Shown here piece after piece: positions 4,745-54,368 of a stretch of DNA of 55,323 bases. The position numbers were made by a program, and so were the translations under genes. The stretch comes from Nitrosotalea sp. (GTDB lineage: Archaea > Thermoproteota > Nitrososphaeria > Nitrososphaerales > Nitrosopumilaceae). How positions within the stretch are numbered: the stretch's first letter is position 1; every line of letters starts with the position of its first letter. The notes beneath the pieces are model-generated. The model was not told the origin of the DNA, did no database searches, and saw only the letters and a program-made list of their open reading frames with translations. Location: contig JARCRW010000024.1 of assembly GCA_029850515.1 (NCBI GenBank), forward strand, positions 1 to 55,323. Direction: 5' to 3'.

Positions 4745-6376
4745 TTAGTAAAGAAAGCTCATTAGTTTTATTTGCTGTTCTGTCGTCAACACATTTTTCG
4801 AAGATAGAATCTCAAGCAATTGAGTTATCAGAGCACGCTCTTGCTCTGAGAATCCAGTTGGACCCTTGTCACCTGGCTGTCCTGGAGGACCTCTTGGACC
4901 CTGTTCTCCTGGAATTCCTTGTTGTCCCTGCGTACCTTGTGGGCCCTTGTCACCAATAGGACCTTGCTGACCTGTCAAACCCTTGTCTCCTTGTGGACCC
5001 TGTACACCCTGTGTACCCTTGTCACCCGGCGGTCCCTGTGGACCTTGTGGACCTGGAGGACCTGGAACTCCTTGAATCCCTGGTGGACCCTTGTCACCTG
5101 GAACACCCTGTGGACCAGTCGTGCCTTTTTCACCTTGTGGACCTTGGATTCCTTGTGGACCTGGAGGACCTGGAGGACCAGACGTGCCACGTGGGCCTTG
5201 ATCACCAGTTGCACCTGGCAACCCTCGTGGTCCCTTGTCACCTTGTGGACCTGGGATTCCAGTAAGACCTTTTTCTCCAGCAGGACCTTGTGGTCCCTGT
5301 GGACCTTTTTCTCCAGCAGGACCTTGAGGACCAGTTAGACCCTTATCACCTTGTGGACCTTGAGGACCGGACAATCCTTTATCACCTGGTACACCCACTG
5401 GGCCTTTTGGACCCTGTTCACCAGGTGGACCAATAATTCCCTTATCACCAGTAGGACCGGGTGGACCAGTAGGACCTTTTTCTCCAAGTGGGCCAATCTC
5501 TCCGGTGAGTCCCTTGTCACCCTTGTCGCCTTTGTCACCTTTGTCACCACGTTCTCCTTTTTCTCCCTCATCACCACGGGGACCCTTATCACCTTGTGGA
5601 CCCTTGTCACCAGTAATTCCTTTATCACCAATTGGACCCTTGTCGCCCCTGTCACCTTTGTCACCTGGTGTACCTTGCGGGCCTTTATCACCATGTGGAC
5701 CCGGTGGTCCCGGAGGACCCTTGTCACCAGTAATTCCTTTATCACCAATTGGACCCTTGTCTCCCCTGTCACCTTTGTCACCTGACGATCCAGAAGGGCC
5801 CTTGTCACCTTTTTCTCCAGCAGGACCTGGTGGGCCTTTATCACCTTGTATGCCCATAGGACCTGGAGGACCGGACACACCTGGTTGACCCATCGGGCCT
5901 GGTTGACCCATTGGACCGGCAGGACCCATAGGACCAGATGGACCGCGGTAACCTCTTTCGCTTGTAAAATGTTCCATGGTTTGTTTTGGTCTTGTATCAG
6001 AATCTGATTTTGTATATCGAGTGATTACTTCTGGCTCCGAGGTTGGTTCGACATAGTCAGAGCCTGTTCGTGGAACATCAACTGGAAAACTGGTGTAAGC
6101 TGATGAAAACTGGTCGATTACAACAACCCAGACTAGCCCTCTCTGAAATACAGATGGAGGTAACGGGTTTTTTACAGAGCCTAAAACTTGGGAAAATTTT
6201 TTGTCTTTAACCCTAAGATGAAAGTTATCTTTCCACAAAGCATGAAAACTTCGCTTCTTGATATCATCAGCAGACGGGGAAGCATCACAGAGTGCAATCT
6301 GTACCTCAAAGACACCAGACGGGATCTTAAAAGGAGATTCGCCTGTGACCTCTATAGTGTTATCTTTTGATGACAT
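4745..6376 (-). CDS. collagen-like protein with about 122 Gly-X-Y triplets
   Basis: A 543-residue protein from ATG 6376. Residues 1-141 form a non-collagenous N-terminal domain without a recognisable signal peptide or family; residues about 142-508 are Gly at every third position without a visible interruption, very rich in GDKG, GPQG and GPPG triplets; residues 509-543 are a C-terminal helical segment ([14 protein letters not shown]) with heptad-like leucines that could nucleate trimers. Collagen triple helices are known in bacteria and viruses as stalks or surface fibres. Charged K-G-D/E-type triplets stabilise helices lacking hydroxyproline. The absence of a signal peptide leaves the location uncertain. 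Large opposite-strand open frames here are artefacts of the repeat. Confidence 0.92.
5598..5784. repeat. 70-bp direct repeat pair inside the collagen gene
   Basis: Bases 5598-5667 and 5715-5784 are identical except for one position (G at 5645, T at 5762), offset by 117 bp, exactly 13 Gly-X-Y triplets. They encode the duplicated peptide run containing [19 protein letters not shown]. The near identity contrasts with the more diverged repeats elsewhere in the gene and points to a recent in-frame duplication or gene conversion. Confidence 0.85.
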
Positions 6377-31304: not shown

Positions 31305-31760
31305 CTACTGGAAATTTTCTAAAATTTTTGGATTTGATTTTAGAAATGTGACAAACTTGCGTAGTTGTTTTATTGTTTGTGGGTTTAGGTGATGTTCTAT
31401 TCCTTCGACATCCTGATTTGCAATATCATGGCTAATTCCAAGCATCATAAAGAACTCTAGTAACGTGCCATGTTTTTGACGCACTGCATCTGCCAACGCA
31501 GAACCTTTCTGAGTCAGGTTGATTCCCCGATATTTTTCATATTCCAGATATCCTCCTTCTGCAAGCTTTTGAAGCATCTTTGTGACAGATGGAGCACTTA
31601 CTGTAAGATATCTTGAGATGTCAAGTGTATTTGCATATCCTTTGAGTTCCACAAGCTCAGATATCACCTCTAGGTAGTCCTCCATTCTAGAATAGTCAGT
31701 TTTTGTCGATTTGTGTGCCTCTTTTATGGATTCTAGCCTCTCAGCGCGTTTTTCCTTCAT
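31305..31760 (-). CDS. DtxR/MntR-family metal-dependent repressor
   Basis: About 151 residues. N-terminal winged helix: SRMEDYLEVISELVELKGYA, VSAPSVTKMLQKLAEGGYLE (recognition helix) and YEKYRGINLTQKG; then the metal-binding dimerisation domain with RQKHGTLLEFFMMLG and DVEGIEHHL. Closest in look to MntR, without a third SH3-like domain. It would repress metal transporters when Mn or Fe is bound; the NRAMP-like gene at 43 kb is a candidate target. The frame is open to 31787, but ATG 31760 lies about 25 nt from a TATA-like ttatatga and is preferred. Ends next to the PINA gene, convergent. Confidence 0.9.
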   Translation of the reverse strand: MKEKRAERLESIKEAHKSTKTDYSRMEDYLEVISELVELKGYANTLDISRYLTVSAPSVTKMLQKLAEGGYLEYEKYRGINLTQKGSALADAVRQKHGTLLEFFMMLGISHDIANQDVEGIEHHLNPQTIKQLRKFVTFLKSNPKILENFQ

Positions 31761-31877
31761 GTTTTTGTTAGTTATACACGAAATCATATAACCTAATCTC
31801 TTGATCAGAAATGTTCACTCAGTTGTGATTGATCTTTTGCATGGAGTTTTAACTATATTTTTAAAAAGAAGGGATGC

Positions 31878-43294: not shown

Positions 43295-44575
43295 TTATCT
43301 TGCCCATAACAAAAATAGCATTATGACAGCCAGTCCCATGACTAGGACAGTAACCCAGCCGACAATGTTTGATATCTTGCCATTTGTTCTGCCCTGCAGA
43401 ATTGTCTTATCATTTCCAATTTTCATGATTGTTATGAGAAGAGGAATTGCAATAATTCCATTAATCACTGCTGCATATATGAGGGCCATGATTGGATCAA
43501 TGCCAAGAAAATTTATCCATAGCCCTACTATAGTAGATGCAGCGATTATCAGGTAAAACCCTTTTGCCTGTTTGAATTTTTTATTCAGACCTTGCCTCCA
43601 TCCAAGTTCTTCAGATAATGCATATGCCGACGAGCCGGCAAGCACAGGTATTGCCAACAATCCCGTGCCAATTATCCCAAGTGCAAATATTGTCTTTGCC
43701 CATTCTCCTGAATTTGGAAATGTTTTCACGAGTGGTTCTAGTGCCTTTGCAGCTTCATCTGCAGTAGATATGTTAGTTATTCCATGAGCATAGAGTGTTC
43801 CAGCTGCGGTTGTTATGATAAACCACATGATTGCTTGTGAAAATATCATTCCGATTGTAACATCTTTCCTCATTGCGTTTATCTCTCTTTTTCTAATTCT
43901 TGGCTTGCCTTCTCCCATTTCTTCTATCTTGTTTTTTACAACATCTTCTTCAGCTTCTTCAGAGGACTGCCAAAAAAATAAGTACGGTGAAATAGTAGTA
44001 CCAAAAATTGCAACAAACAACATTGCAAAAGTTGGAGTAAATTCAATGTGCGGTATTATACTTGCAGTCAACATTGCCACTAAATTTCCTCCAACAATAA
44101 ATGCCGTAATCACATATGCAAATAAGCTTAGAGTCAAATACTTGAGTATGATCACATATTTCTTGTATGGAATGAAAACTTCTGTGCAAACAATTAGTAC
44201 CGTAAATAAAATAGTGGCAACAACTATTGGAGACTGCGGTAAAACAAGTTTAACAGAGGCGGCCATCGCTCCAATGTCTGCGCCTATGTTGATAGTATTT
44301 GCAATTAAGAGCAGACCAATAATCGGGTAGCCTATTTTTTTTGAATATTGTTTTCGCAGGACTCCTGCAAGTCCATTTCCTGTAACAAGGCCTATACGCG
44401 CACATATCTCTTGAATTACTATCATCATTGGCAGCTGAAGTAGTGCAAGCCATAGAGTCCCAAAGCCAAATTGTGCGCCCGCCTGAGAATAGGTTGCTAT
44501 CCCAGATGGGTCATCATCAGATGCTCCGGTTATCAATCCAGGACCTAGAAATTTGAAAAATGATTTGATTTTCAT
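43295..44575 (-). CDS. NRAMP-family metal transporter with non-canonical metal site
   Basis: A 426-residue, eleven-helix transporter of the NRAMP superfamily (Mn/Fe symporters). Family landmarks: GPGLITGASDDDPSGIATYS in helix 1, INIGADIGAMAAS in helix 3, and FGTTISPYLFFWQ in helix 6. In classical NRAMPs helix 1 carries DPGN and helix 6 has a Met (A-T-I-M-P-H) that selects transition metals; here these read DPSG (22-25) and T-T-I-S-P-Y (Ser196). Loss of the Met is seen in NRAMP-related Mg2+ transporters and other divergent groups, so substrate may be Mg, Mn or another ion. ATG 44575. Confidence 0.88.
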   Translation of the reverse strand: MKIKSFFKFLGPGLITGASDDDPSGIATYSQAGAQFGFGTLWLALLQLPMMIVIQEICARIGLVTGNGLAGVLRKQYSKKIGYPIIGLLLIANTINIGADIGAMAASVKLVLPQSPIVVATILFTVLIVCTEVFIPYKKYVIILKYLTLSLFAYVITAFIVGGNLVAMLTASIIPHIEFTPTFAMLFVAIFGTTISPYLFFWQSSEEAEEDVVKNKIEEMGEGKPRIRKREINAMRKDVTIGMIFSQAIMWFIITTAAGTLYAHGITNISTADEAAKALEPLVKTFPNSGEWAKTIFALGIIGTGLLAIPVLAGSSAYALSEELGWRQGLNKKFKQAKGFYLIIAASTIVGLWINFLGIDPIMALIYAAVINGIIAIPLLITIMKIGNDKTILQGRTNGKISNIVGWVTVLVMGLAVIMLFLLWAR

Positions 44576-44661
44576 AAATGATTATTCATACCTGGCGTGT
44601 CCTATATTTGCAGTTATGCAGGTCTAATCTATGTCAAATATTTTGTCAAGGAATCGTGCTG

Positions 44662-46268: not shown

Positions 46269-46363
46269 ATGTTTTAGCAGGTCCATGTGATAAATTAATC
46301 GTGTTAACTGTATTTTAGTTACTAGTGTAATATCACTTTTGAATATCATGTTTGATAATCTGA

Positions 46364-48596: not shown

Positions 48597-48612
48597 TTAT
48601 CAAAATTGATTT
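48597..48612. promoter_or_regulatory. TTATCA-N4-TGATTT element upstream of the USP gene
   Basis: TTATCAAAATTGATTT lies about 9 bp upstream of the TATA-like box of the minus-strand USP gene. It matches the 16-bp palindrome found at 50416-50435 and 53297-53312 except for the last two bases. Confidence 0.45.
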
Positions 48613-48800
48613 CAAATTACCAATACGATAGTACTAGTAATCAAGAATTGTGATATAGGCATAAAAGCACGATGGAAGCAATCCCTACTGGTTTTTCACT
48701 CCACTCCCTACCTGTGACACGGCTCTTCATAAAGACACTTTCAATACAAAAGGAGTTGGCAAGTTTGGCTATGATTAAATCAAATAAATTCAATGACTAG

Positions 48801-48824
48801 ATTAGGAGTATGCAGCCTCCTAAT
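48801..48824. terminator. hairpin after the gene at 48844
   Basis: ATTAGGAG (48801-48808) and CTCCTAAT (48817-48824) form a perfect 8-bp stem with an 8-nt loop, 20 nt past the stop codon of the minus-strand gene. Likely an RNA hairpin marking the 3' end; archaeal termination mainly needs T-rich tracts, so its role is inferred. Confidence 0.4.
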
Positions 48825-48843
48825 TCTCCAGAAGTGTATTGTA

Positions 48844-49182
48844 CTAGTATGATGCTATTGAAGCAGAGCCTGTTACTGTTTCAACCTCAGGGTCGTTTGA
48901 TATTGCCTCTATTGTCTTTAGGCTCATGTTTCCCTGTGCAAGAAGACTAGATTTTCCCTCTTTTGCCATGCAGTATCCATATCTTGACCTTAATTGGTCC
49001 AATTTTTTTTCACTGTCCGTTCCTGCCTTGTAATGAACATGCAAGTTTACAGCAGGTGCTACATCATGGAATTTTCTTTCATATTCCATCACCCGCATGG
49101 CAAGCCCTGGGTCTATTTTCTGCAATTTTGATGAAATGTTTTCTAGTACGTAATCGTACATTGATTCAATTTCTTGTGACAT
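48844..49182 (-). CDS. hypothetical protein, 112 residues, stress-island member
   Basis: ATG 49182. A soluble protein with an amphipathic N-terminal helix (MYDYVLENISSKLQKIDPGL), a beta strand (APAVNLHVHYKAG) and a Gly/Ser-rich hydrophobic end (DPEVETVTGSASIASY). No family recognised. It is divergent from the CBS gene at 49.28 kb and shares a 100-nt promoter region with it; a TATA-like aatttaagg is about 25 nt from its start. Confidence 0.65.
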   Translation of the reverse strand: MSQEIESMYDYVLENISSKLQKIDPGLAMRVMEYERKFHDVAPAVNLHVHYKAGTDSEKKLDQLRSRYGYCMAKEGKSSLLAQGNMSLKTIEAISNDPEVETVTGSASIASY

Positions 49183-49232
49183 GCCGCTAATATGTTGTAA
49201 AATGAATTTAAGGAGAATCTATGATTCCCACC

Positions 49233-49245
49233 TCTGATAATCAGA
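49233..49245. promoter_or_regulatory. TCTGATAATCAGA palindrome between divergent genes
   Basis: A perfect palindrome (TCTGAT-A-ATCAGA) lying about 8 bp upstream of the TATA-like tttaaa box of the CBS gene and about 22 bp upstream of the box for the divergent gene. It shares the TGATAA half-site with the longer palindromes in this region. Confidence 0.45.
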
Positions 49246-49281
49246 TTTAGATCTTTTAAATCCACGAATACCATGCGTTGC

Positions 49282-49719
49282 ATGGTAGAAAGTTTTGTTA
49301 GAAATGTGATGAAATTCAATGTAGTTTCAATCAACTCATCATCAACTGTTTCGGATGCAGCAAAGACTATGAAAGATGCAAACATTGGGTGTGTTATTAT
49401 AACTGAAAACAATACGGCAGTTGGAATACTAACAGAAAGGGATCTTGTTCGCAAAATTATCGCTCTTCAAAAACCACTATCCACTTCTGTCAAAGACATA
49501 ATGTCAACACCACTGGTTATGATAGATCCTGAAGAAAGCCTATGGGAACTTGCAGAGATTATGAAACAAAAACAAATCCACAAGGTGCCCGTGGTAGAGA
49601 ATGGCAAGCTAGTTGGAATTGTAACAGCAACGGATTTGACAAGAGTGTGTAGTCTTGGCTCTGATTCAGAGATGAGTAGAATTTGTACTGAAATAATAGC
49701 AAGAATGCAAAAAATTTAA
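49282..49719 (+). CDS. two-CBS-domain protein (intact)
   Basis: A 145-residue CBS pair (Bateman module) without catalytic domain: VRNVMKFNVVSINSSSTVSD, GILTERDLVRK (CBS1), VKDIMSTPLVMIDPEESLWE and HKVPVVENGKLVGIVTATDL (CBS2). Such modules bind adenine nucleotides and report energy state. The frame is open to ATG 49273; ATG 49282 is preferred since it lies about 26 nt from the TATA-like ttttaaa (49253-49260). It is the intact paralogue of the broken copy at 47.5 kb. Confidence 0.92.
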   Translation: MVESFVRNVMKFNVVSINSSSTVSDAAKTMKDANIGCVIITENNTAVGILTERDLVRKIIALQKPLSTSVKDIMSTPLVMIDPEESLWELAEIMKQKQIHKVPVVENGKLVGIVTATDLTRVCSLGSDSEMSRICTEIIARMQKI

Positions 49720-49850
49720 CCTACGTATAATTGTAGAATAAAAAACTAGTCCCGCGTCAAATTTTTTCTCAAAGCCCAAAGTCTTTTCCCACCTTTTTAG
49801 GTAGTGTCAGAAATAGAAGATGTATCTACTATTGTTGTCATCAATTGCAA

Positions 49851-50330
49851 TTATTTTACACCTAATAGAGATACTGTTTCTGAATCGCTATCAATCATGA
49901 TTGCAGTACCAGAATCTTCTGCAGGGTTTAACGAATATACTGCATGCGGTCTGAACATTATTAGCTCTGGTTGTTCCGCATGAGCCATTCTTTCAAATAT
50001 TTTTGCGCTAGTCTTACCTGTTGCGGAACGGCATATGATATCAGTAATTCTCGATTTCTCTTGTTTATTTGTCACAAAGCTAACCTTGCCTTTCATCTGA
50101 TATCCCTTTAGATCTTCCTTGTCAAATACTGCAACACTTACCCATGGAACATTTTTGAAATTATAGTGAGATTTATGTTTGAAAAAATCAAGCCAATAGA
50201 TCACATCTTCTAAAAAGTAAAACGAAGTTCTGGGAGACAGGTTACACATGCCATTCAAATCAATAGATCCCACTACGACAAATTTTTGTCCAGACATCAT
50301 ACTTTGAACTTCTTTTGGAATTATAACCAT
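49851..50330 (-). CDS. pyridoxamine 5'-phosphate oxidase-like FMN-binding protein
   Basis: A 159-residue split-barrel flavoprotein: FVVVGSIDLNGMCNLSPRTS (FMN-site strand), VIYWLDFFKHKSHYNFKNVP and VSVAVFDKEDLKGYQMKGKV are typical of the PNPOx-like family that includes F420/FMN-dependent reductases. The substrate cannot be read. ATG 50330 lies about 25 nt from a TATA-like tttaattaaa, and a TTATC/GATAA palindrome (50372-50389) lies upstream of that box, shared with the divergent cupredoxin gene. Confidence 0.8.
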   Translation of the reverse strand: MVIIPKEVQSMMSGQKFVVVGSIDLNGMCNLSPRTSFYFLEDVIYWLDFFKHKSHYNFKNVPWVSVAVFDKEDLKGYQMKGKVSFVTNKQEKSRITDIICRSATGKTSAKIFERMAHAEQPELIMFRPHAVYSLNPAEDSGTAIMIDSDSETVSLLGVK

Positions 50331-50371
50331 GTGCTCATATCCTATAATCTTTTAATTAAAGACAAAACATG

Positions 50372-50435
50372 ATTATCTCAGCTGATAATTATAGGTTATC
50401 ATGATGCACACAAATGATTATCAGTGTTGATAATC
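50372..50435. promoter_or_regulatory. two palindromic operator elements between divergent genes
   Basis: ATTATC-tcagct-GATAAT (50372-50389) lies upstream of the TATA box of the minus-strand flavoprotein gene; GATTATCA-gtgt-TGATAATC (50416-50435) lies upstream of the TATA-like aattaaaataaaa of the plus-strand cupredoxin gene. Between them is a further TTATCATGAT. The arrangement gives each divergent promoter its own site just upstream of TATA, as expected for an activator. Confidence 0.65.
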
Positions 50436-50472
50436 ATAATTGAATTAAAATAAAATTGTGTTTATCTGTCCC

Positions 50473-51231
50473 ATGATGAAACATTCCATGTTACTTTTAA
50501 TTTTGGTTTCTACGGTATTGTTTGGTACGGCATATGCAGATTCATCCTCAACTACAATGAAAGGGTCTGGAATTGCATTACTAAACTCTGGCTCACCACA
50601 AATGTACGAGTCAAGTGTTAGAATCCTACTCTCAAATCACGCTACAATTGACAGTGGTCTTATAACAATAAGCACTGACCAGATTACAGCAGTTGAAAGG
50701 ATGACAGTAAGCCAATGGAAGTTTGCATATGGTACTGACGGCTCATTTCATGCATCTGGACCTGTAATTTCAGGAGATAATACATCATACTACATGGTTT
50801 TAGACGGTGATAGATTACTTGCATCAGTGGCAGGATCCTTGTGGAAGATAAGTGCAGAATTGAAAAACAGTGATCAAAATTATATTTTAGAATATCTAGT
50901 AAGTAGCAAGAGCCATCCAATGGATAATGTGACATCATATCTAACTGCCAATGTAACCATACCAAATGGTAATTCAGTACAGGCTAGCACCGGTTTCTTC
51001 ATACCGCTTAACTTGGAAGTTTTACAGGGCACAACTGTAACATGGAAAAACCAAGACAATATTGATCACACAGTTCAAAGCATAAACAGTCAGGGGACTA
51101 TCATTCCAACATTTAACAGCCCCATTCTAAAGACAGGTGATACGTTTACTCACAAGTTTGACAAGCCTGGAGTGTACCATTATTTCTGTTCCATACACCC
51201 ATGGCGAATTGGAGTAGTAACAGTATCTTAG
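50473..51231 (+). CDS. secreted plastocyanin-like cupredoxin protein
   Basis: About 252 residues with an N-terminal signal peptide (MLLLILVSTVLFGTAYA, cleavage near AYA-DS), a beta-rich middle region of unknown type (about 30-150) and a C-terminal cupredoxin domain (about 160-252). Copper ligands: His199 (NIDHTVQS), Cys239 and His242 in HYFCSIHPWR. The axial Met expected three residues after the second His (H-P-x-M) is Arg245, so the site would be weakly ligated or three-coordinate. The frame extends to GTG 50458; ATG 50473 is preferred. Its role may be electron transfer or copper handling outside the membrane. Confidence 0.85.
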   Translation: MMKHSMLLLILVSTVLFGTAYADSSSTTMKGSGIALLNSGSPQMYESSVRILLSNHATIDSGLITISTDQITAVERMTVSQWKFAYGTDGSFHASGPVISGDNTSYYMVLDGDRLLASVAGSLWKISAELKNSDQNYILEYLVSSKSHPMDNVTSYLTANVTIPNGNSVQASTGFFIPLNLEVLQGTTVTWKNQDNIDHTVQSINSQGTIIPTFNSPILKTGDTFTHKFDKPGVYHYFCSIHPWRIGVVTVS

Positions 51232-51246
51232 ATACACTGATGCAAT

Positions 51247-51825
51247 CTAGTATACGTGTTCGTTAAAGTCCAAACCAAGGGCTATACTTGCTATAGTAGT
51301 ATTGGGGGTCGTCTTACATTGCATTGCAAGTCCTGGTAAAAACTGGTGAAATATTTGCTTTAATAGTTGTTCAGTGAAAAGTGACCATTTAATCCCAAGA
51401 TTGTGTTGTATTATGAAATGATGTGTACCTCCCTCTGTTCTATGATCTGATATCATACCAGAAGCACGCATATAGTCTTCAAGCGCTTCTATTGCCCGCT
51501 TCAAGTCATAATTTCCTTTCATGAACATGACCCAGTCTTTTATCATCGGAATCATGATGTCAATGATCTTGTTTATTTCATCGCCCTTCATTTCATCTCC
51601 AAGTATCTTGAGAATTTCCTTTGGCACTGGAATTATGCCTATTTTATCCGCAAATCTGTCCCACCGAACATATTTTTCCAAGATTTGTTTTACCAGAACA
51701 TTTTGTGAGACTTCCTTTTGCATTGCCTCGGTCTCCAATTCGTTTACAATATACTCGGGGAGTCTATAACTTATGCTCCTTGTCTGTTCATGTTTTGCAG
51801 GATGCGGCTGTCTTTTAACAGTCAT
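51247..51825 (-). CDS. hypothetical protein with ribbon-helix-helix-like N-terminus
   Basis: A 192-residue protein from ATG 51825. After a basic tail, TRSISYRLPEYIVNELETEA followed by SQNVLVKQILEKYVRWD has the strand-helix-helix look of ribbon-helix-helix DNA-binding domains. The rest (about 70-192) is helical (KIIDIMIPMIKDWVMFMKGN) with a basic/His stretch GGTHHFIIQHNLGIKWSLF; no family recognised. It may be a regulator of the stress island. Convergent with the cupredoxin gene, 15-nt gap. Confidence 0.7.
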   Translation of the reverse strand: MTVKRQPHPAKHEQTRSISYRLPEYIVNELETEAMQKEVSQNVLVKQILEKYVRWDRFADKIGIIPVPKEILKILGDEMKGDEINKIIDIMIPMIKDWVMFMKGNYDLKRAIEALEDYMRASGMISDHRTEGGTHHFIIQHNLGIKWSLFTEQLLKQIFHQFLPGLAMQCKTTPNTTIASIALGLDFNEHVY

Positions 51826-51864
51826 CCCTCTTTTACTGGATATGATTTAATAAAAATATGTTGT

Positions 51865-51960
51865 TTACTTGCCGTGTACCTTATCAGGATTATGTCGAGT
51901 CAGGTACACAACAAGTGATCTGTTACCAGAGGGAATAGACATTACAATTTTACATTCCAT
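51865..51960 (-). CDS. possible 31-residue microprotein
   Basis: ATG 51960 opens a 31-residue frame, MECKIVMSIPSGNRSLVVYL followed by TRHNPDKVHGK. The amino-acid pattern (strand, Ser-Gly-Asn turn, strand, basic end) looks protein-like, and a longer frame upstream to 52083 looks less so. It could be a real microprotein in the gap before the Hsp20 gene or chance. Confidence 0.25.
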   Translation of the reverse strand: MECKIVMSIPSGNRSLVVYLTRHNPDKVHGK

Positions 51961-52079
51961 TATGAACAAAAAACTAGGAACTACAAGTAAATTACATTCA
52001 ATCACCTTTTGATGGATACTGGGTGAAAGATAGGATATAGTGTGGAACCATGATGCTTCAAAATAAAAAAATAGTAAAG

Positions 52080-52598
52080 TCACTTTGATTGTACTTTAGT
52101 CTCTTTCTTGATGCTTGATTTCTTGGGTAACTCTACTGTCAAAGTTCCGTTATTCATTTTTGCTGTTATATCGGATTCAGCAATCCTTTCTGGAACAGTC
52201 AAAATTCTTCTATACCGTAGAAAAGATCTTTCATTTTTGACATAATTTTTTGATTTTTCCTCGCTTACATCTTTGTGCTCTGCTGAAATTTCCACATGTC
52301 TGCCAGTTACGTTTACCTTTACATCCTCATCTTGTATTCCTGGCAAGTCTGCAGTGAGAACATACATGTCTCCACGGTCTACAAGATCGCAGCTTATGTC
52401 TTTCGGAAACTGTCGCATGTAATTTGGAAACATCTCATACATGTGTTCGAAATTTTCTGAAATCTTGTCCCATGCTGAATCCATCTCCATAAACCCGGTT
52501 TTAAACCACGGTAGATCATTCCACTGCGTAAAAAGAGGTTCAAGCCACGGATTAGGGGTTGTTACAGGAAGACGTTTCTCATTACTGATTTTTACCAT
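52080..52598 (-). CDS. small heat-shock protein, Hsp20/alpha-crystallin family
   Basis: A 172-residue sHsp. The N-terminal region (about 1-65) is Trp/Phe/Met-rich and substrate-binding; the alpha-crystallin domain follows: DRGDMYVLTADLPGIQDEDV, VTGRHVEISAEHK, SFLRYRRILTVPERI and MNNGTLTVELPKKS (A-x-x-x-n-G-x-L motif). The C-terminus lacks a clear I-x-I. It holds unfolding proteins. Start ATG 52598, about 25 nt from a TATA-like cttaaaaac. Confidence 0.93.
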   Translation of the reverse strand: MVKISNEKRLPVTTPNPWLEPLFTQWNDLPWFKTGFMEMDSAWDKISENFEHMYEMFPNYMRQFPKDISCDLVDRGDMYVLTADLPGIQDEDVKVNVTGRHVEISAEHKDVSEEKSKNYVKNERSFLRYRRILTVPERIAESDITAKMNNGTLTVELPKKSSIKKETKVQSK

Positions 52599-52805
52599 AT
52601 TTTACACATCACATAATTGCTTAAAAACGATCTTACGATTACCAGTGCCTATATTTGCTTTCAGATTATTTTATTAGCAATATAGACTTGTGAGACCATC
52701 TTACGTTGGTTGGCAGTATCAGGACATTCGTGCATAATCAACTAATAAAATAGCACATCTACATATCATTCGCTATGGAAACGCTTGTTTTTTATTAAAA
52801 AATTA

Positions 52806-53255
52806 TTATCTGTCCCAGTATTCGTATTCTTCAAACAAATTTTCGTATAGATCTTTTTTGTAATTATCTGAATCAGCAGTTATTGCACTAAAATGTTTTA
52901 GAAAATCAGTTATAGATATTATTCCCAATGGCTGGTTGTCATTTACCACCAGTACATGTCTAATCTTTCCTTCCAACATTGTCTGTGCAACATCATCGAC
53001 AGATGCAGATGCAGAAATAGTAACAACAGGTGAAGACATCATTTCGGTTGATTTCACGTCAGATGGTTTTTTGTTTTGTGCTGAAATTTGCGATAAAAAG
53101 CTTCTCTCAGTTATTATTCCATATGGTTTCTCATTTTGAGTTACAATGACACAACTTACATTGTTTTTGTGCATTACCTTTGCGATATCTGTTGGAGATG
53201 TAGTTGATTCCATAGTGATTATTTTTTTTGACATGATTGCTCGTGCAGTCAGCAT
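52806..53255 (-). CDS. two-CBS-domain protein with acidic/aromatic tail
   Basis: About 149 residues from ATG 53255 (MLTARAIMSKKIITMESTTS); the frame is open to 53315, but this ATG lies about 25 nt from a TATA-like ttttatatc. CBS1 ends in GIITERSFLSQ, CBS2 in LGIISITDFLKHFSA. The last 20 residues (LYENLFEEYEYWDR) are acidic and aromatic, unlike the other CBS proteins here. Divergent from a USP gene; the two share an operator palindrome. Confidence 0.9.
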   Translation of the reverse strand: MLTARAIMSKKIITMESTTSPTDIAKVMHKNNVSCVIVTQNEKPYGIITERSFLSQISAQNKKPSDVKSTEMMSSPVVTISASASVDDVAQTMLEGKIRHVLVVNDNQPLGIISITDFLKHFSAITADSDNYKKDLYENLFEEYEYWDR

Positions 53256-53296
53256 GGAGTGAAATTGCCCAATTTGATATAAAACTACTGGTGAAA

Positions 53297-53312
53297 TTAT
53301 CACTGTTGATAA
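53297..53312. promoter_or_regulatory. TTATCA-ctgt-TGATAA operator between CBS and USP genes
   Basis: A perfect 6+6 palindrome with a 4-nt spacer, differing by one spacer base from the site at 50418-50433. It sits just upstream of the TATA-like boxes of both divergent genes (about 53276-53284 for the CBS gene on the minus strand, about 53316-53325 for the USP gene on the plus strand). Confidence 0.65.
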
Positions 53313-53379
53313 CAAGATAAAATCATATTTGATAATGCACCAATTCGTTAATATCGGCGAGGCATTTTATAACTTGCAA

Positions 53380-53826
53380 ATGTCAATAAGAAATATCCTA
53401 ATTCCATATGATGGGTCACCCTTGTCAAAGAAAGCTCTTGCATTGGCAAAAGACATTGCAAGAAACTTTACAGCAGATCTGACACTCCTAATGGTTATCC
53501 CGGCGTATTATCCAATAAATGACTCTGTGTTTTCAGGAGCAGCCGTAACAAATTACCAAGAAATAGTCAAAACCCTCAAGCAACAGGGGGAAAAGGAGTT
53601 GGGAAAAGTTGTGGAGAAATGTAGAGAGGAAGGTACCAAGACTGCATACAAAATTGTACATGATGATGTTTCAAATGCAATCCTAAAGGAGGCAAAAAAA
53701 CTAAAGGCGGACATGATAGTCATGGGAAGTAGAAGACTCACAGGCATATCAGTGGTAAAACGCCTTGGAAGCACTGCAAGACATGTTTCAGAGCACGCAC
53801 AATGCCCTGTAACCATAGTACATTGA
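53380..53826 (+). CDS. universal stress protein (UspA family)
   Basis: A 148-residue USP from ATG 53380: SIRNILIPYDGSPLSKKALA at the N-terminus, ADMIVMGSRRLTGISVVKRL and GSTARHVSEHAQCPVTIV at the C-terminus. The ATP loop reads G-S-R-R instead of G-x2-G, so nucleotide binding may be altered. The frame is open to TTG 53329, which would add 17 atypical residues. It is paired with the divergent CBS gene; CBS and USP proteins are frequent partners in stress and energy sensing. Confidence 0.9.
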   Translation: MSIRNILIPYDGSPLSKKALALAKDIARNFTADLTLLMVIPAYYPINDSVFSGAAVTNYQEIVKTLKQQGEKELGKVVEKCREEGTKTAYKIVHDDVSNAILKEAKKLKADMIVMGSRRLTGISVVKRLGSTARHVSEHAQCPVTIVH

Positions 53827-53951
53827 GAAAGTAATTATCTTTACAATAGGACTTTTCATCTGCAATCTAGATGGTTCTGCACATATAGAAAGTCTGCATT
53901 GCACGGCAATGCAGTCCTACTCGTTATATCAGAAAAAGAGATCAAGTCATC

Positions 53952-54284
53952 ATGCAAGTATTAATCCAAGGTAAATCGGTCCAAGAACAAACAACGAAAG
54001 ATGTTCTGCTAGAAGTCATGGCAGACAAGTATTCTCGTCTAATACTAGAATCAACAATTGAAATGCCAAAATCAGTTATTGATCTCAGCAAGGAATGTGG
54101 TGTACCAATCAGTACCGCATACAGGAGAGTACAGAGATTACATGGCCTCAAACTTCTTGGCATATCAGGCTCAATTAATGAAGATGGAAAAAAGTACTTT
54201 TTGTACAAATCCAAGATCAAGTCCATTATGACTTGTTTTAACAATGGCATGCTTGATGTAGAGATTATTCCCAATTTTGTATAA
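53952..54284 (+). CDS. winged-helix transcription regulator, ArsR-like
   Basis: A 110-residue protein with a central HTH: KYSRLILESTIEMPKSVIDL, SKECGVPISTAYRRVQRLHG (recognition helix) and a wing ISGSINEDGKKYFLYKSK. No metal-binding cysteine motif is evident (single Cys before the recognition helix, another near the end). It could control the stress island. ATG 53952. The gene ends inside a strong hairpin. A truncated relative lies at 45.15 kb. Confidence 0.82.
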   Translation: MQVLIQGKSVQEQTTKDVLLEVMADKYSRLILESTIEMPKSVIDLSKECGVPISTAYRRVQRLHGLKLLGISGSINEDGKKYFLYKSKIKSIMTCFNNGMLDVEIIPNFV

Positions 54285-54293: not shown

Positions 54294-54368
54294 CTCCGAA
54301 ATTTTTCTTACAATCATAACTGAGAATCATGCAGGTGTCTTAAATTCGTGTGTGAGGTTAAACATACA

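Follow-up and report, generated by a model that had tools for sequence, protein, structure and literature searches.

A fixed palindrome beside the TATA box as the probable operator of a stress regulon in Nitrosotalea

In a 55,323-nucleotide stretch of DNA from the ammonia-oxidising archaeon Nitrosotalea sp. (contig JARCRW010000024.1 of assembly GCA_029850515.1; the whole stretch is called the window here), the palindrome TTATCA-N4-TGATAA stands in front of several genes for CBS-domain proteins, universal stress proteins (USPs), a flavoprotein and a cupredoxin. This raises the question whether the palindrome is an operator that joins these genes in one regulon, and how its regulator would act on the promoters. 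An earlier note, made from the letters of the window alone, had proposed a common operator of stress genes. Our analysis of sequences from this and related genomes indicates that the palindrome is a real operator in the Nitrosotalea genome. We consider it likely that it serves a lineage-specific stress regulon, in which a dimeric regulator binds next to the transcription factor B recognition element (BRE), most likely activating transcription.

The fixed geometry of the promoters is the strongest evidence for an operator, and it is decisive. We surveyed 712 kb, almost entirely from Nitrosotalea and its sister genus g5, with start codons assigned by a fixed first-ATG rule. The distance from site to ATG was 40-44 bp in 62 of 146 cases, compared to about 6 expected from a uniform distribution; fifteen control palindromes, pooled, gave 4 of 25 distances in this range. 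Alignment of 61 promoters yielded the full consensus ATTATCA-N4-TGATAATC. In these promoters the TATA box (TTTAAAT or similar) starts a fixed 12 bp past the palindrome edge and the ATG follows about 24 bp beyond the TATA box, so that the variable TATA distance of 8-22 bp given earlier has to be replaced by a single value of about 12 bp. The pattern of palindrome plus TATA box had about 37 hits in 14 genomes versus one control hit. With the TATA box this near the ATG, the target mRNAs are probably leaderless or nearly leaderless.

The same geometry is seen in the window, where nine stress genes have a palindrome 39-44 bp before the ATG. Spacings were measured from the palindrome edge to the ATG, and start codons were chosen by conservation among orthologues. 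The sites, with one copy at a non-canonical spacing, are as follows.

46343-46358: one-mismatch copy ATATCATGTTTGATAA between an ABC ATPase gene (minus strand) and an ABC permease-like open reading frame (ORF; plus strand); spacing non-canonical
48597-48612: putative operator TTATCAAAATTGATTT, two mismatches, of a USP gene (minus strand, ATG 48554); spacing 42
49225-49240: putative operator TTCCCACCTCTGATAA of two divergent genes, for the 112-aa protein (minus strand, ATG 49182; spacing 42) and a two-CBS-domain protein (plus strand, ATG 49282; spacing 41)
50373-50388: putative operator TTATCTCAGCTGATAA, one mismatch, of the PNPOx-like flavoprotein gene (minus strand, ATG 50330); spacing 42
50418-50433: putative operator, exact, of the secreted cupredoxin gene (plus strand, ATGATG 50473/50476); spacing 39/42
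52639-52654: putative weak operator, ATATAGGCACTGGTAA on the minus strand, of the Hsp20 gene (minus strand, ATG 52598); spacing 40
53297-53312: putative operator, exact, of a two-CBS gene (minus strand, ATG 53255); spacing 41
53320-53335: putative second operator AAATCATATTTGATAA, two mismatches, of a USP gene (plus strand, ATG 53380); spacing 44
54311-54326: putative degenerate operator CAATCATAACTGAGAA, three mismatches, of a four-CBS gene (plus strand, ATG 54369); spacing 42

The shared palindrome of the earlier note was real at its four principal positions (50418, 53297, 50373 and 48597). Its "compact variant" at 49233-49245 proved to be half of the full-length site at 49225-49240, which serves two divergent genes, and its list lacked the sites at 53320, 54311 and, weakly, 52639. 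The exact copy at 50418-50433 is nested in a 24-bp palindrome (50414-50437), and the arrangement of the flavoprotein site recurs at four other loci (L064, L075, L084 and L088). Orthologues of the four-CBS gene keep the right half of its site in their promoters, and in a close relative the right half of the Hsp20 site reads TGATAATC. Unlike the window copy at 46343-46358, the orthologues of the ABC ATPase gene in G151 and G155 have the palindrome at a spacing of 41-42. A variant, TATCA-N4-TGATATTTCTGCATATGG-TTTTAA, was found almost unchanged upstream of the gene for a small membrane protein (G000:C94:353-385 and counterparts in G040, G068, G078, G157 and G015), even in one genome that is otherwise poor in sites.

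The copy numbers also depart from chance. Seventeen matches at two or fewer mismatches are present in the window against 7.25 expected, and 0 of 100 shuffles reached 17. The genome (1.70 Mb) has 38 copies at no more than one mismatch, 28 with one mismatch and 10 exact, although two of the exact copies (on C47 and C80, each close to a contig end) have identical flanks and may be one site. The reversed control pattern gave 1 exact copy and 6 at no more than one mismatch. We then used 207 kb picked independently of the motif, namely the window plus loci retrieved through a helix-turn-helix (HTH) gene discussed below; these loci are mutually related, so that the counts are not independent. The TTATCA half-site had 30 copies at no more than one mismatch, and each of 59 other permutations had at most 5. 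Among gaps of 0-10 between TTATCA and TGATAA, the gap of 4 gave these 30 copies, the gap of 10 gave eleven and every other gap at most 4; many exact copies were found for gap 4 only. A weight matrix trained without loci of this species ranked the regulon promoters of the window at the top.

A Nitrosotalea genome has 4.4 exact copies on average, the remaining genomes of the family (g5 and G074 left out) about 0.95. Two genomes of g5 have 7 exact copies each, mostly upstream of the same gene families, and both g5 and the Nitrosotalea relatives repeat the geometry there. Among 40 exact copies examined in other genera of the class, 30 are coding, several of them within one conserved protein, and none has the promoter arrangement. 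As the earlier note had advised, we checked whether the motif is equally frequent in coding DNA: in the Nitrosotalea genome 9 of the 38 copies lie within ORFs of at least 90 aa, leaving about three quarters intergenic, compared to the 30 of 40 coding copies elsewhere, and the operator was not refuted. G074 and G081, which have high copy numbers outside the lineage, were rejected as carriers because their copies are mostly coding or wrongly placed. Promoter enrichment is thus combined with conservation at orthologous genes, as in a regulon, and by this distribution the regulon is limited to Nitrosotalea and its sister genus g5.

The families that recur as targets are CBS-domain proteins (the largest group), USPs, a 112-aa family without known relatives, secreted cupredoxins and PNPOx-like flavoproteins. 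Further recurrent targets are ABC ATPases, PAC2, chaperonin, Hsp20, MFS and P-type ATPases, a PhaC-like hydrolase and alcohol dehydrogenase. This mixture suggests stress as the signal of the regulon. The earlier idea of an operator shared by stress genes is borne out by the CBS, USP, PNPOx-like flavoprotein and cupredoxin genes, to which Hsp20 is added. The putative members with mapped extents in the window are these.

48844-49182, minus strand: 112-aa protein, among the most constant targets
49282-49719, plus strand: two-CBS-domain protein
49851-50330, minus strand: PNPOx-like flavoprotein
50473-51231, plus strand: secreted cupredoxin-domain protein
52806-53255, minus strand: two-CBS-domain protein
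53380-53826, plus strand: universal stress protein

The 112-aa protein gave a confident structure model (predicted local distance difference test score, pLDDT, 89). Its family has no Pfam or NCBIfam match and no convincing fold match, and the label "HPF-like" was rejected on these grounds.

We propose that a dimeric, probably winged-helix regulator binds the palindrome, whose half-sites lie one DNA turn apart. The site occupies positions about 43-58 bp ahead of the start codon, 12 bp from the TATA box and directly upstream of the expected BRE; from there the regulator would most likely act by aiding the binding of TATA-binding protein (TBP) and transcription factor B (TFB). The CBS proteins, USPs, PNPOx-like flavoprotein, secreted cupredoxin, Hsp20, chaperonin, transporters and the conserved 112-aa protein would then respond jointly. 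Published archaeal activators occupy, as dimers, a tightly constrained position a few bp ahead of the BRE, from which they recruit TBP or TFB (PMC2995911, PMC5512572). The palindrome likewise keeps a constrained distance just upstream of the BRE and TATA box, where known activators bind, in agreement with the earlier note (PMC2995911). Because its placement is that of published activators, activation is the best guess, with repression through hindrance as its chief rival. Several points weigh against this proposal. The left half-site is frequently degenerate, which leaves room for weak or false targets; some copies deviate from the canonical spacing; the enrichment over related genomes is not independent evidence; and no site at the canonical distance was found upstream of a recognisable regulator gene.

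Which protein reads the site? The earlier note had named two HTH genes, and a second palindrome lies before one of them.

53952-54284, plus strand: winged-helix HTH protein, model closest to the heat-shock regulator Phr (2p4w)
53895-53913: different palindrome TGCATTGCACGGCAATGCA in the promoter of gene 53952, outside the TTATCA regulon
51247-51825, minus strand: ribbon-helix-helix (CopG-like) protein, an unlikely TTATCA factor

The ribbon-helix-helix protein is unlikely to be the regulator, since it is missing from G094 (best hit 32% identity), whose regulon genes carry sites. A third HTH family, "C" (L194/L211/L065), looked promising, being island-linked and present in g5, but was rejected because G105, with its 9 exact sites, lacks it. 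Among the loci of Lrp (PF01037) and ArsR-like (PF12840) genes that were read in four genomes, no promoter has a site at two or fewer mismatches. The ribbon-helix-helix and winged-helix genes are repeatedly close neighbours across the family, as in the window and in G074:C42, G112:C1, G117:C129 and G155:C3, and their paralogues also stand side by side (G000:C37).

Protein 53952 is a weakened candidate, and we regard it as possible but doubtful that it reads TTATCA, serving as an autoregulator in some Nitrosopumilus and having gained the stress regulon in Nitrosotalea. Its winged-helix, ArsR-type model matches best the Pyrococcus heat-shock regulator Phr (E value 4e-4), whose site contains TGGTAA (PMC6316755). 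The gene sits among the targets. Of the sampled genomes of the genus, G124, G133, G156 and G157 lack a close orthologue and have only 1-2 exact copies of the palindrome each, and the other 15 all encode a close orthologue. In some Nitrosopumilus (L116, L119, L120, L267-L270, G044, G048, G059 and G116), a TTATCA-type palindrome lies between the TATA box and the ATG of the orthologue. The promoter of 53952 itself, however, bears TGCAYTGC-N3-GCARTGCA and no TTATCA palindrome, which suggests that the protein reads the TGCA site. This site has one exact copy in the genome (53895-53913), is essentially single in each genome and precedes 53952 orthologues family-wide (L094-L107, L244-L281), the usual sign of a gene's own operator; it persists in degenerate form in the GC-rich family member G088. 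It is probably the dedicated autoregulatory operator of 53952, though the neighbouring ribbon-helix-helix protein could read it instead. Orthologues also occur throughout the family, commonly in Nitrosopumilus that lack the regulon, so that the two distributions do not coincide, and the putative recognition helix is identical in genera without the regulon. Moreover, G117 has a 92% identical copy yet one exact site, and G134 (g5) has sites but no close orthologue, although its assembly may be incomplete. A further reading, in our judgement rather unlikely, is that a so far undescribed general stress regulon came about in the Nitrosotalea lineage: a Phr-like regulator, controlling little beyond its own gene in relatives, would have become a global activator by gaining operators at a fixed BRE-proximal position before at least about 15 USP, CBS, chaperone, redox and metal genes.

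A repressor operator, at which a dimer beside the BRE would hinder TFB and TBP in unstressed cells until stress frees the promoter, appears rather unlikely. The site is near enough to the BRE and TATA box for a bulky protein to interfere, and the palindrome on the start of the 53952 orthologue in some Nitrosopumilus is in a repressor position. Phr, which the model of the linked protein 53952 resembles most, is itself a repressor (PMC9133787). However, the palindrome overlaps neither the TATA box nor the start, ending 12 bp before the TATA box, and a single rigid distance fits activation better (PMC2995911).

It is improbable that the palindrome is a core promoter element peculiar to the lineage and recognised by an alternative TFB/TBP pair with no separate regulator. 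The rigid distance to the TATA box and the fact that many archaea have several TFBs are in favour of this reading, but two-fold symmetry over 16 bp, upstream of where the BRE usually lies, is characteristic of the site of a dimeric regulator, the BRE itself being short and asymmetric. That the palindrome is a chance product of AT-rich DNA or a dispersed repeat is hardly credible: outside the lineage there is indeed about one exact copy per genome, mostly coding, but the permutation, gap, spacing and intergenic tests contradict this explanation, and the flanking sequences vary from copy to copy.

Two further features of the window were observed. It encodes an MntR-type (DtxR family) regulator (31305-31787) and an NRAMP Mn transporter (43295-44575), and a TTATCA palindrome with two mismatches (44569-44584) overlaps the transporter gene at its start. 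A 543-aa protein (4745-6376) has a long collagen-like Gly-X-Y repeat (GDKGPPGP...), unusual in an archaeon.

Regulation in ammonia-oxidising archaea is hardly known. A 16-bp operator with exact geometry and a target list provides a testable prediction for acidophilic nitrifiers, whose handling of stress bears on nitrification in acid soil, and it places genes without a known function (the 112-aa family and numerous paralogues of CBS and USP genes) in a shared regulatory setting.

As the earlier note had supposed, we found no described regulator with this site in the literature searched, which misses most subscription journals; nor did it yield a description of the motif, of the Nitrosotalea regulon or of an activator site of this type in ammonia-oxidising archaea, or a transcriptome of this lineage. 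Fur/PerR boxes are built of TGATAAT half-sites (TGATAAT-N1-ATTATCA). They share the half-site letters, but the TTATCA site has the opposite orientation and a gap of 4 instead of 1, and the match was rejected. The DosR dormancy regulon of Mycobacterium tuberculosis also holds CBS, Hsp20 and flavoproteins. Its content is similar in including several USPs, six in all (PMC2914252), whereas its site and type of regulator are unrelated, so the likeness is in content only. The Phr regulon of Pyrococcus furiosus is likewise an archaeal stress regulon with Hsp20, but Phr sits across the transcription start as a repressor (PMC9133787, PMC6316755), while the TTATCA palindrome lies upstream of the TATA box. 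Lrp-type and other archaeal activator sites (Ptr2, Ss-LrpB, LysM and EarA) are similar in that a dimer site a few bp upstream of the BRE, in a constrained position, mediates activation (PMC2995911, PMC5512572); their sequences and targets differ. By analogy, the closest precedent in kind is the ultraviolet (UV)-response hexanucleotide of Sulfolobus acidocaldarius, a stress element fixed at -39 to -44 upstream of the BRE in many promoters and found from promoter sequences before its factor (PMC5817253). It differs in being non-palindromic (A(N)TTTC), in preceding other genes and in having been tested with reporters (PMC5817253).

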